The position numbers and the translations under genes are program-made. DNA of 64,000 nt from Candidatus Bipolaricaulota bacterium (GTDB taxonomy: Bacteria; Bipolaricaulota; Bipolaricaulia; UBA7950; UBA9294), in assembly GCA_030606565.1 (NCBI GenBank), contig JAUWGE010000001.1, forward strand, positions 126,301 to 190,300, in the 5' to 3' direction. How positions within the stretch are numbered: the first letter of the stretch is position 1; every line of letters begins with the position of its first letter. This document shows, piece after piece, positions 1,814 through 23,389 of the stretch. The notes under the pieces are model-generated. The model had not been told where the DNA came from, ran no database searches, and saw nothing but the letters and a program-made list of their open reading frames with translations.

Positions 1814-2638
1814 ATGAGTACCCCTGCACTTGAGCTTAATCAGGTATGTAAGGTTTTCACCAAGAAGGAACGCGACAAGACCAAAGCTCGCTTTGCGCCT
1901 AAGAAAAGAGAGAAGGTCATCGCTCTTGACGATGTGAGCCTGTCGGTTAACCGACGGGAGATCTTCGGAGTCCTTGGCCCGAACGGGTCGGGAAAGTCGA
2001 CCCTGATCCGGCTCCTTTCTACCCTGCTGATCCCCGACAAGGGGACCATCCGCGTCTTTGGCCATGATGTCGAGAAGGAAGAATTCGCGGTGAAGCGGTT
2101 GATCAACCGTGTCTCGGTCGATGCCGCCTTCTTCAAGAAGTTTTCTCCTTTGGAGAACCTGACCTACGCCGCCCGGCTCTATGGGATGCCAATGCGCGAG
2201 GCACGCGAAAAGATGCGACAGATCATGCTTCGTCTAGGTTTAAAGGAGGAGACGTTCAACCAACCGATGGAGCACATGTCGCGCGGAATGCAGCAGAAGG
2301 TCGCTGTGGCGAGGGGGTTTCTTACCTCGCCCACGCTCTTGTTGTTGGATGAGCCAACAACCGGACTCGATCCACACTCCAAGCGCGACGTTCAAGGCTT
2401 TGTACGCCAGATCCGCGCCGAACACGACGCGACGATCCTCCTCACAACCCACGACATGGAGGAGGCAGATCGGCTGTGCGACCGGATCGCGATAATCGAT
2501 GAGGGAAAGATCATCGCCCTCGATACGCCAAAGGGGCTAAAAGAGCTGGTTAGCAAGCGAAACGGGCATGAACCGACCCTCGAGGACGTGTTCATCGAGC
2601 TGACGGGAAAGAAGATGGAGGAGAAGGAGGCGGAATGA
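1814..2638 (+). CDS. ABC transporter ATP-binding protein (ABC-2 type, drug/daunorubicin-resistance-like)
   Basis: Walker A GPNGSGKST, signature MSRGMQQKVAVAR, Walker B LLLLDEPTTGLDP; ATG 1814 preferred over 1766 because of SD caaggag. Confidence 0.9.
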   Translation: MSTPALELNQVCKVFTKKERDKTKARFAPKKREKVIALDDVSLSVNRREIFGVLGPNGSGKSTLIRLLSTLLIPDKGTIRVFGHDVEKEEFAVKRLINRVSVDAAFFKKFSPLENLTYAARLYGMPMREAREKMRQIMLRLGLKEETFNQPMEHMSRGMQQKVAVARGFLTSPTLLLLDEPTTGLDPHSKRDVQGFVRQIRAEHDATILLTTHDMEEADRLCDRIAIIDEGKIIALDTPKGLKELVSKRNGHEPTLEDVFIELTGKKMEEKEAE

Positions 2639-3459
2639 ACACCCTAGTTCGTGAGATGCGTGGCGCGTTCGCCTTCATCGAGCGTAATATCAATCTGATC
2701 AAGCGCTACTGGGGCTGGGAGCTTGTGTGGCTGATCTACTCACTGGTCAACTCGCTTGCCGTTACCTATATCGGTGCGGGGATGGAGCGGATCAGCGGAC
2801 AGGCACTCGATACGCAGTACTTGATCACCTATCTCCTCGTGGGGACGCTGATCTGGTCGTACCTATCGGTGATCTTCTACTCGATCTCCGAGATGATAGC
2901 CTGGGAGCGCTGGGAGGGGACGATCGAGTACACGTTCATGGCCCCGGTATCGCGCCTTACTCACCTGGTGGGAACGACCCTGTTCGCCATCGTCTACGGG
3001 GTATTGCGGACGCTCGTCATCCTGGTGATCGTCGCATCGTTCTTCCGGCTCGATCTATCGGGGGCGAACATCCCAGGAGCGGTATTGCTGCTCCTAGCGG
3101 GAAGCGTCTCGTTCGTCGGCTTGGGGATCCTCGCCGCGGTCCTGCCGCTTCTCTACCCGGAACGGGGCGTACAGATGACAAACGCCGCCGCCGCGATCCT
3201 CCTCCTCATCTCCGGGGTTTACTACCCGGTGGAGATCCTCCCTGGATGGCTGCAGGTGATCGCCTCCGCCTCACCAGCGACTTACGTGATCAAGGGTATG
3301 CGGGCCTGCCTGCTGCACGGGGAATCGACCCGCGCGCTCATTTCGACCGTCCTTTTCTTGATCGGCGCTGGAATCGCGGTGATCGCCATGGGGCTTCTGA
3401 CCTTTCATCGGGTGGAGCGATACGCCAAGCGAGCTGGACGCCTGAAGCGGAGTGGTTAA
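2635..3459 (+). CDS. ABC-2 type transporter permease
   Basis: Six hydrophobic segments; overlaps the upstream ATPase stop (ATGA). Confidence 0.88.
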   Translation: MNTLVREMRGAFAFIERNINLIKRYWGWELVWLIYSLVNSLAVTYIGAGMERISGQALDTQYLITYLLVGTLIWSYLSVIFYSISEMIAWERWEGTIEYTFMAPVSRLTHLVGTTLFAIVYGVLRTLVILVIVASFFRLDLSGANIPGAVLLLLAGSVSFVGLGILAAVLPLLYPERGVQMTNAAAAILLLISGVYYPVEILPGWLQVIASASPATYVIKGMRACLLHGESTRALISTVLFLIGAGIAVIAMGLLTFHRVERYAKRAGRLKRSG

Positions 3460-20505: not shown

Positions 20506-20603
20506 GTTAACCTCCCTGAATATTTATGTGCCTACCTATACAGTCTCTAGCAGTCTCTTCGGAACGCTCACCTCCTTTCTCGACCTAGCGGATAAGGCCA
20601 CCC

Positions 20604-20636
20604 AAAAATAAAGACCACAGGCATTGCCTGTAGTCG
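20604..20636 (-). terminator. Intrinsic terminator/attenuator upstream of livK
   Basis: Sense (minus): gactacaggca-atgcctgtggtc-tttattttt. Confidence 0.65.
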
Positions 20637-20640
20637 TCTT

Positions 20641-20693
20641 CCTGCCTTATCTTGAGCTTTACCTATTGTTTAGGTTAGCTCAAACAAGGCAGG
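20641..20693 (-). promoter_or_regulatory. Large leader stem-loop
   Basis: Arms CCTGCCTT 20641-20648/AAGGCAGG 20686-20693, TTGAGCT 20652-20658/AGCTCAA 20677-20683, ACCTA/TAGGT. Confidence 0.7.
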
Positions 20694-20780
20694 CATCCAC
20701 AGAATAAAATAATGAACGACGTAAAGGGAACCGGTAACTACGCCTTCAGTCTCTCTTCGATACCCTTTTGCCGTGTTCAT
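20670..20780 (-). CDS. Candidate 36-aa leader peptide MNTAKGYRRETEGVVTGSLYVVHYFILWMPALFELT
   Basis: First ATG after a near-consensus promoter; ORF runs into the large stem-loop preceding the terminator upstream of livK. Confidence 0.45.
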   Translation of the reverse strand: MNTAKGYRRETEGVVTGSLYVVHYFILWMPALFELT

Positions 20781-20790
20781 AGTTATCCCC

Positions 20791-20819
20791 ACTATAGCAT
20801 GTATCCGCCACGCTGTCAA
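20791..20819 (-). promoter_or_regulatory. Promoter of the livK leader
   Basis: Sense TTGACA-17 nt-TATAGT. Confidence 0.7.
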
Positions 20820-20852
20820 GAGCAACACCTGCGTCCGTCAAGAGATCGTTTA

Positions 20853-21500
20853 TTACAAGCCAGGAACGTGAGCTCTATTCTCCAAAGACCGCAGGAGGCG
20901 ATTGGCGATCGTGACCAGACCCAAGTAGAGCAACCCAACGACCAGGAACACCTCAAAGAAGCGGAACGTCTCGTAGGCGATCAACCGCCCCTGGCCTGTC
21001 AGGTCAACGAGGGTGACAAGGTAGGCGAGCGAGGAATACTTAATGAGGTACACGATCTCGTTGGAGCAGGCGGGAAGAGCCTTTCGTAACATTTGGGGGA
21101 GGATGATCGACAGAACAGCCTGAAGCCTTCCCATGCCCAAGGCGCGTGCGGCTTCCAACTGCCCACTTTTTATGGAGAGGATCGCACCGCGAAAGTACTC
21201 GGAGTGGTAGGCCCCGCTGCATAGGCTGAACGCGACGATGGCGGAGACAAACGGACTGAGCACAAGACCGAAGCGCGGAAGGCCGTAATAGATGATAAAA
21301 AGCTGCACCAACAGCGGTGTCCCCCGGAAGAGCGCCTGGTACACCCAAGCCAGAGACGACAGTAGAAGCCCGCCATAACTTCGCCCCAGCGCAACCGTGA
21401 TCCCGATCGCAAGGCCAATGGGTACTGAACAGACGATGAGTTGGAGCGTGATGGACATCCCTTGAAATAGGCGAGGAAGCGCCCCTGCGAGGAAGCTCAT
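20853..21500 (-). CDS. Polar amino-acid ABC transporter permease (HisM/GlnP family)
   Basis: FRGTPLLVQLFIIYYGLP; EAARALGMGRLQAVLSIILPQMLR EAA loop. Confidence 0.9.
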   Translation of the reverse strand: MSFLAGALPRLFQGMSITLQLIVCSVPIGLAIGITVALGRSYGGLLLSSLAWVYQALFRGTPLLVQLFIIYYGLPRFGLVLSPFVSAIVAFSLCSGAYHSEYFRGAILSIKSGQLEAARALGMGRLQAVLSIILPQMLRKALPACSNEIVYLIKYSSLAYLVTLVDLTGQGRLIAYETFRFFEVFLVVGLLYLGLVTIANRLLRSLENRAHVPGL

Positions 21501-22192
21501 CGACTGCTCTCCTTCGCACGATCTCCAAGGCCGGGGATGCGAGTGCGTCGCTCCATTACCCAGAAGACTAAGACGCCAAGATAGGTAAGGACGAGGTAGA
21601 TAGCGGCCACAGTCAGGTAGATCGTCATCGTGGCGTAAGTTCGCGCAACGATGAACTTGCCCCTGCTCAGTAGCTCAACAACGCCGACAGCAAATGCCAA
21701 CGCAGTATCTTTGAGGACGATGGAATACTCATTGGCAAGCCCTGGAAGTGAGAAGTGAAGAGCCTGAGGGAGGAGCACCAACCAGATTGCTTGAGGTTTG
21801 CTCATTCCCAGGGACCGGGCTGCCGCCATTTGACCCTCTCCCACTGCTAACAGGCTGCCACGGTAGATCTGGGATTGATAAGCGGCGCTGCGCAGCCCCA
21901 GCGCCAAGACCACGGCGAGGAAGGGAGAGAGGGAGACCCCTTCGATGCTTCCCAACCCGAAATAGAACAAGAACAGAAGAACGAGGGCGGGAAACCCCCG
22001 GAATATCCTGTCATATATGGCAGCGACCCATTTGCACCAGCGTGTGCCATACACGTGGACGAGTGCTAAGGGAACCCCGAGAAGAAAGCCGACTCCCAGA
22101 CAGGTGGCGATCAACGCCATCGTGATGTACGCACCCTGAAGGAGCGTGGGCAAGGAGCGCACGATCAAGTTCAAGCTGTCTGTGAAACTCAT
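21497..22192 (-). CDS. Polar amino-acid ABC transporter permease (HisQ/GlnP family)
   Basis: FRGFPALVLLFLFYFGL; AARSLGMSKPQAIWLVLLPQAL; 4-bp overlap with the next gene. Confidence 0.9.
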   Translation of the reverse strand: MSFTDSLNLIVRSLPTLLQGAYITMALIATCLGVGFLLGVPLALVHVYGTRWCKWVAAIYDRIFRGFPALVLLFLFYFGLGSIEGVSLSPFLAVVLALGLRSAAYQSQIYRGSLLAVGEGQMAAARSLGMSKPQAIWLVLLPQALHFSLPGLANEYSIVLKDTALAFAVGVVELLSRGKFIVARTYATMTIYLTVAAIYLVLTYLGVLVFWVMERRTRIPGLGDRAKESSR

Positions 22193-22244: not shown

Positions 22245-23030
22245 TTAGTCTCCGATGAGCCACTTCTCTACAAGACGGTCCCATTCGTCGCTTGCCTTGA
22301 TGCGTTTGAGACCCTCGTTTAACAGGGAAAGCAGCTCGTCATCGCCTTTACGGACCGCGTAACCGTAGATTTCACCGGTGTTGATCGTCCCCACGATCGT
22401 TGCATCCCGGCCAGCTATGGCGGAGCGTGCGGTCGGCTCGTCCATGACCGCGGCGTCGACACGGCCTATCAGGAGATCCTCTACCGCGAGCAGGAAGCTG
22501 TCGTAAAGCTTGAGCTTGACAGCAACGCCTTCGTCTACGAGGTTCTCCTCGATCCAGGTCTGTGAGGTCGTCCCCCGCTGCACGCCGATGGTCCTGCCAG
22601 CGGCGATGGCCGAGAAGATGTTGAACTGAGGAAAGGGCTCTCCCTCTTCATCTACCTCTTCCCGCACGATTACAGCAAGGTCGATCGACCAGTAGGGATC
22701 GGTGAAATCGACCTGTTCTAGACGCTTTTGGGTGATGGTCATCCCCGAGGCGATCATGTCGATATTCCCAATCTTCAAGGTGGGAATGATCGCGTCCCAA
22801 TCGATAGGAACGATCTTTACCTCAAAGTCCATCTCACCCGCGATCCACTGGACCACCTCCACGTCGAAGCCAGCCGGGTCTCCATTCTCGTCGATGTAGG
22901 AGAAGGGCGGGAACGCAGCATCGATACCGTCGACATAGAGAGGTTTCTCGCCTGCCACAGAAAGAAGAGCGAAGCTCGTCAACAACAGACAAAGTGCAAC
23001 AGCAAACCGCACAGAAACTCGTACAAACAT
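22245..23030 (-). CDS. Polar amino-acid ABC substrate-binding protein, family 3
   Basis: Signal peptide; AAFPPFSYIDENGDPAGFDVEVVQWIA; DMIASGMTITQKRLEQVDFTDPYW. Confidence 0.92.
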   Translation of the reverse strand: MFVRVSVRFAVALCLLLTSFALLSVAGEKPLYVDGIDAAFPPFSYIDENGDPAGFDVEVVQWIAGEMDFEVKIVPIDWDAIIPTLKIGNIDMIASGMTITQKRLEQVDFTDPYWSIDLAVIVREEVDEEGEPFPQFNIFSAIAAGRTIGVQRGTTSQTWIEENLVDEGVAVKLKLYDSFLLAVEDLLIGRVDAAVMDEPTARSAIAGRDATIVGTINTGEIYGYAVRKGDDELLSLLNEGLKRIKASDEWDRLVEKWLIGD

Positions 23031-23141
23031 GTTATCCTCCTAATTGAAAAGGCTTTTAACTAGGTTATTTTCTGCTAATTTGACACGGCAATGAATGCCC
23101 ATCGGTTGGTAAAACACAACGAGCAAACAATAAGAGTGGTT

Positions 23142-23243
23142 TTAGAGTGAACGGTCCCAGGAGGGACCGTGATGCGCGTGGAGGTGAGCATGCAGCCGAA
23201 TCGTGTTGACGCTAATTGGTCCAAGCCGATTAACGGTTTGCAC
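23142..23243 (-). CDS. Candidate His-rich 33-aa leader peptide MQTVNRLGPISVNTIRLHAHLHAHHGPSWDRSL
   Basis: GTG start with SD GGAGG, downstream of a promoter; five His codons in eight (HAHLHAHH); flanked by alternative hairpins. Confidence 0.6.
   Translation of the reverse strand: MQTVNRLGPISVNTIRLHAHLHAHHGPSWDRSL
23151..23170 (-). promoter_or_regulatory. Leader hairpin at the end of the His-rich ORF
   Basis: acggtccc-tcct-gggaccgt perfect 8-bp stem; no U-run directly after. Confidence 0.6.
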
Positions 23244-23272
23244 GAAAACCACCTCCACTGTTGGATGAAACC

Positions 23273-23301
23273 ACCTTACCCGTTAGCTGCTTCATTGTCA
23301 A
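23273..23301 (-). promoter_or_regulatory. Promoter of the His-rich leader
   Basis: Sense TTGACA-17 nt-TAAGGT. Confidence 0.5.
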
Positions 23302-23333: not shown

Positions 23334-23362
23334 TTGACAACAAAGGTCGGAGGGGCTATCAT
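23334..23362 (+). promoter_or_regulatory. hrcA operon promoter
   Basis: TTGACA-17 nt-TATCAT immediately upstream of the CIRCE element. Confidence 0.7.
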
Positions 23363-23389
23363 TTAGCAAACACCATTGGAGAGTGCTAA
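23363..23389 (+). promoter_or_regulatory. CIRCE operator (HrcA binding site), degenerate left arm
   Basis: TTAGCAAAC-N9-GAGTGCTAA against consensus TTAGCACTC-N9-GAGTGCTAA. Confidence 0.88.

Follow-up and report, generated by a model that had tools for sequence, protein, structure and literature searches.

A histidine-codon leader ORF upstream of an amino acid importer operon in Candidatus Bipolaricaulota, a putative ribosome-read histidine sensor

The enterobacterial hisL leader (Rfam RF00514, His_leader) combines a short ORF, clustered His codons, and RNA structures close by. In Firmicutes, for example Erysipelotrichaceae and Peptostreptococcaceae, his operons and/or histidine ABC transporter (hisZYX) operons are preceded by His-rich leader peptides (PMC9413887). 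Mycobacterial cys operons have leader ORFs with Cys codons and no obvious terminator, for which a Rho-dependent or translational output has been proposed (PMC1262725; Canestrari et al. 2020, cited in PMC13236596). In the LEU element of actinobacterial leuA, the cognate codon run pairs with a Shine-Dalgarno (SD) box (PMC1262725). Here, we describe a leader from a 64,000-nucleotide stretch of Candidatus Bipolaricaulota DNA, referred to as the window, that shares with hisL the short ORF, the clustered His codons, and the nearby RNA structures. No codon-read histidine control in this phylum was found in the literature searched.

The leader ORF and its conservation

The leader is encoded on the minus strand. 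Its promoter and SD were read from the sequence.

23273..23301, minus strand: promoter of the leader and importer operon, TTGACA-17-TAAGGT
23249..23258, minus strand: SD of the leader, GTGGAGGTGG, which doubles as the 5' strand of helix P1
23142..23243, minus strand: His-rich leader ORF of 33 codons, with a GTG start at 23243 and a TAA stop at 23144-23142, found in all close orthologues

A spacer of 17 nt separates TTGACA (23301-23296) from TAAGGT (23278-23273). The encoded peptide is MQTVNRLGPISVNTIRLHAHLHAHHGPSWDRSL, and five of the eight consecutive codons of its HAHLHAHH cluster specify His. Direct reading thus confirmed the promoter and the SD-preceded, GTG-started ORF that the earlier note had claimed. 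Its approximate gap of 110 nt to a family 3 binding protein and two permeases was read as 111 nt between the leader stop and the binding-protein ATG (23030), and the protein families matched.

Histidine accounts for 1.7% of the codons in the long ORFs of the window, and against this background the probability of at least five His within eight given codons is approximately 8e-8. We scanned the window for short ORFs from 2,104 start positions, with the leader ORF counted from three in-frame starts. It was the only ORF to reach 5 His in 8, and the sole short ORF with at least 4 His in 8 plus an SD. The cluster is therefore not a chance occurrence, and the histidine-packed leader ORF is real. Rare-codon use was rejected as a feature of the leaders; the over-representation of CAT was modest (27/57 versus 50/179, p = 0.009, calculated from non-independent sequences) and not significant for the window leader alone.

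The binding protein encoded downstream was used to search the source genome (63 contigs) and its relatives, and the source taxa of the matches were mostly Candidatus Bipolaricaulota or Acetothermia. According to the earlier note, close relatives that have the operon but no His codons would speak against the idea; this condition was checked, and the idea held. All 11 close orthologues of the binding protein (approximately 62-75% identity, window included, Candidatus Bipolaricaulota) are preceded by a short leader ORF that keeps the His cluster in a peptide otherwise widely variable in length and N-terminal sequence. The cluster takes the forms [L/F]HAHH, LHHHH, and HAHHHAHH. Examples of the leaders are MQTISQIVRAEFTRITVTRHFHAHHGPHQDHLA (L034), MKTILRSRGTSLTRVIPSRHFHAHHGPFQGHHA (L004 and L033), MLTYQSSVRITLDLSLHAHHHAHHGHQS (L017), MLRINVVLSQTVHTGLRLHHHCIHR (L011 and L040), and the partial LHAHHPVHHGHLHI (L038), the SD of which falls off the contig. 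In six close relatives, TTGACA is invariant and the -10 element is kept as TAnnGT.

A twelfth genome, G023, carries the leader MFIRIASLQLTGSSVCRLHHHHIHI at two contig ends, with the downstream gene out of view. The His leaders at the ends of these contigs, C53 (L074) and C54 (L076), are identical and the sequences upstream of them differ, which suggests that the region was duplicated and then split by the assembly. Distant family 3 homologues of the binding protein that were fetched had no such leader upstream. A pattern search of 100 genomes of the phylum, with strict patterns that may miss divergent copies, yielded no further leader. Matches to the leader SD pattern elsewhere in the family were dismissed as additional leaders, as the eight stretches fetched lead to other ORFs.

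The importer operon and histidine supply

The leader is followed by three importer genes.

22245..23030, minus strand: family 3 substrate-binding protein of the polar amino acid type (PF00497), 261 aa, containing no His
21497..22192, minus strand: permease of a polar amino acid ABC importer (TIGR01726 domain)
20853..21500, minus strand: second importer permease (TIGR01726 domain)

Matches to PF00497 and TIGR01726 above cut-off identify a polar amino acid (family 3) ABC importer, comprising an SBP_bac_3 protein and two permeases of the HisM/HisQ type. In the window, the region next to the two permease genes (20506-20852, minus strand, and downstream) contains no ATPase gene, whose product may therefore be supplied to this importer from another locus. 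By contrast, L038 has an ATPase gene that follows (2446-3201).

With the HisJ equivalog model NF011965, the binding protein scored 76.7 bits versus a cut-off of 459, and its closest solved sequence relatives are glutamine and arginine binders. Residues D37, R103, and D197 align with D11, R77, and D161 of Escherichia coli HisJ, which we take to be general amino acid anchors, and are kept with ArgT and GlnH. Residue W78 corresponds to Leu in HisJ and to Phe in ArgT and GlnH. As judged from this alignment, the anchor residues leave specificity unfixed, and the ligand is not readable from it. The lack of His in the binding protein, common to ten orthologues, was set aside as a supporting signal, since 9 of 21 other family 3 binding proteins are equally His-free and the depletion is thus a weak indicator.

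HisD is absent from 31 of 33 family genomes, and full-length HisA/HisF is absent from the same 31; many of the genomes are incomplete, and the pattern of absence is uniform. Both HisD and HisA/HisF are present in the two exceptions, G029 and the leader-bearing G024. One published Acetothermia genome has been reported to encode histidine catabolism (PMC6092417). Because most of the family has neither HisD nor HisA/HisF, histidine uptake should be vital, and the leader probably belongs to the histidine supply system of these auxotrophs. Given the auxotrophy and the His codons of the leader, we infer that the importer brings in histidine.

The region divergent from the importer operon carries a TTGACA-17-TATCAT promoter (23334-23362, plus strand), directly followed by a CIRCE-like inverted repeat, TTAGCAAAC-N9-GAGTGCTAA (23363-23389, plus strand). 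This repeat lies upstream of hrcA-grpE-dnaK-dnaJ, and HrcA autoregulation would be expected to act there.

RNA structure and the search for an output step

The following elements of the transcript were considered.

23178..23187, minus strand: 3' strand of P1, located in the second HxH codons (CAC CTC CAC) and complementary to the leader SD
23151..23170, minus strand: hairpin P2, ACGGTCCC-TCCT-GGGACCGT, directly 3' of the last His codon
23031..23141, minus strand: low-G spacer from the leader to the binding-protein gene, with no terminator-like hairpin
23036-23041, minus strand: SD of the binding-protein gene, AGGAGG

The SD of the leader, GUGGAGGUGG, complements its H-x-H codons (CCACYUCCAC), and the two would form helix P1; this pairing of a leader SD with its own His codons is, as read from sequence, the new element in the present case. 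In the window, 23249-23258 pairs with 23178-23187 with a duplex energy of -18.8 kcal/mol. Both strands can be seen in 11 leaders, and P1 is predicted in each of them, with energies of -12 to -23 kcal/mol. An alignment of six leaders has no unpaired P1 cell, and the outer pair varies among G-C, G-U, and A-U. For P1 and P2 together, 97.6% of the cells are paired, versus 42-57% when the partners are slid. Covariation is thin, with one two-sided change in each helix, and its score was matched in 56 of 500 shuffles. Tested against synonymous codons, P1 gained modest support beyond the peptide per sequence and none in L017, and fold z-scores of the leaders ranged from -4.8 to +1.3.

Most close relatives have a hairpin at the place of P2, after the last His codon. 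P2 is not uniform; it is shifted upstream in L035 and does not directly follow the His cluster in L037, L039, and L040. Because the AHH codons are flanked by P1 and P2, stalling on them would, judging from footprint size, place the ribosome over the 3' strand of P1 and the 5' arm of P2.

No terminator-like hairpin was found between the leader and the binding-protein gene in the window or in L033-L036, L005, and L037-L039; L040 and L017 contain isolated weak 5-bp stems only in this interval. A consistent terminator/antiterminator pair was not detected in the window or its relatives, where P1 and P2 were the only recurring structures. In an Rfam covariance-model scan of the window, neither His_leader (RF00514) nor a T-box was found, and one tRNA alone reached the cut-off. 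When a ribosome was simulated on the His codons of ten leaders, thermodynamic predictions of access to the binding-protein SD changed without consistency. A Rho gene was present in 11 of 11 leader-bearing genomes tested. The G content of the spacer is 16% in the window and 13-16% in six close relatives, and only 1.7% of the 80-nt stretches of the window have a G content of 16% or less. On these grounds, Rho-dependent termination or mRNA decay is proposed as the output.

Three relatives (L037, L040, and L017) contain a second short ORF that carries its own SD and starts approximately 150 nt before the binding-protein gene. It includes a GGTCCC..GGGACC hairpin, at which CAC GGT CCC is in frame. 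The second ORFs of L037 and L017 share MRxGLIPYPLRxVFWPHGP, with several synonymous differences, and that of L040 reads ..PPYRDWHGPSRD. This ORF may encode an additional peptide for sensing or arrest. Elsewhere in the family, matches to the CACGGTCCC..GGGACC hairpin were discarded because they fall within other ORFs or unrelated sequence, as was the single FWPHGP match outside the operon, which lies inside the reading frame of another gene. In L038 alone (approximately 65-160), CCCCTCTCGC, just past the leader stop, has its complement, GCCGAGAGAGGGC, some 60 nt further downstream, close to an ATG that shares the reading frame of the binding-protein gene. Local masking of the SD by this pairing is possible.

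A proposed mechanism, its alternatives, and known systems

We consider it likely that the leader acts in cis on the amino acid importer operon as a histidine sensor that is read by the ribosome. Transmission of its signal to the importer genes via Rho or mRNA decay is conceivable, although we regard this step as rather uncertain. The steps would be as follows. When His-tRNA is plentiful, the ribosome would pass the leader, P1 and P2 would fold, and the leader SD would be closed, so that ribosome-free RNA would be lost through decay or Rho-dependent termination. Under a shortage of His-tRNA, the ribosome would stall on the His codons and its footprint would keep both structures from closing; the leader SD would still be loaded, the importer message would survive, and the importer would take up histidine. 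We offer the complete scheme tentatively and consider it doubtful as a whole: a self-locking leader whose sensing His codons would close their own ribosome-binding site, with a waiting ribosome keeping it open for the next, read by Rho or decay without a terminator/antiterminator pair and joined in three relatives by a tandem second ORF with an HGP hairpin.

The earlier note had proposed leader-peptide attenuation. The His-codon leader before the importer, kept in 11 of 11 orthologues, upholds one part of this claim; the classical attenuator was not supported. In a hisL-like transcription attenuator, stalling on the His codons would favor an antiterminator over an intrinsic terminator, and the locus does offer a promoter, an SD, and a leader with a run of His codons that a hairpin follows. 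Among the hisL-type characteristics, the leader ORF with clustered codons was found, whereas an intrinsic terminator and mutually exclusive structures were not. With terminator-like hairpins lacking as described above and no His_leader match in the window, this reading is improbable. Output could also be translational, with an anti-SD-like CCUCC in the His codons masking the binding-protein SD until a stalled ribosome frees it. The His-codon CYTCC can pair with AGGAGG (-9.6 kcal/mol in the window, -11.6 kcal/mol in L040), and some known attenuators sequester the ribosome-binding site of the gene and use no terminator (PMC9413887). However, predicted access to that SD did not rise consistently with a ribosome on the His codons, and the SD of the leader itself is a much stronger pairing partner, which makes translational attenuation unlikely.

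Two further explanations dispense with histidine sensing by the ribosome. If the H-x-H codons were kept for pairing with the leader SD, the histidines of the peptide would be a by-product of an RNA-only constraint. The presence of P1 in all leaders and a mildly favorable synonymous test fit this idea, but P1 comprises only the C-YTC-CAY stretch, and the AHH, HHH, and HAHH codons outside it stay His with third bases mixed between CAC and CAT. Since His auxotrophy and the importer context also suit a histidine signal, we hold an RNA-only constraint to be very unlikely. Alternatively, the peptide might itself be the product, as a metal-binding or trans-acting small protein. HxHxHH motifs are able to bind metals, and the strong SD predicts good translation. 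The genes downstream, however, encode an amino acid importer, peptide length and N-terminal sequence vary as noted, and the self-pairing of the SD suits control in cis; a role as product is most improbable.

A ribosome-read sensor, the reading we prefer, would very probably allow cells to step up importer production under histidine shortage. Its presence suggests that an importer is under codon-read histidine control in a phylum that is largely uncultured, in a family whose genomes mostly have no histidine synthesis. The leader also allows the substrate to be predicted for an importer that belongs to a sequence family from which the ligand is not apparent. Its compact architecture, with pairing of the leader SD and the sensing codons and without a terminator, implies that scans for intrinsic terminators would miss such leaders.

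In comparison with known systems, the present leader precedes an importer, whereas hisL precedes biosynthesis genes. Its His codons are interspersed with Ala, Leu, or Phe codons, it has no intrinsic terminator and no Rfam match, and, unlike in hisL, its SD pairs with the His codons. The Firmicutes leaders, from a different phylum, have the His-rich peptide in common with it, but their His residues come three to five in succession, and terminator/antiterminator hairpins have been predicted for them (PMC9413887); neither a terminator nor an antiterminator was found here. The mycobacterial Cys leaders also consist of an ORF with amino acid-specific codons and no obvious terminator; those ORFs are leaderless and concern another amino acid and other genes, whereas the present leader has a strong SD. 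The SD paired in the LEU element is that of the downstream gene, in contrast to the leader's own SD in our case. The present case combines a His leader, no terminator, and own-SD pairing in another phylum, and, despite the missing hisL terminator, would work like an amino acid attenuator.
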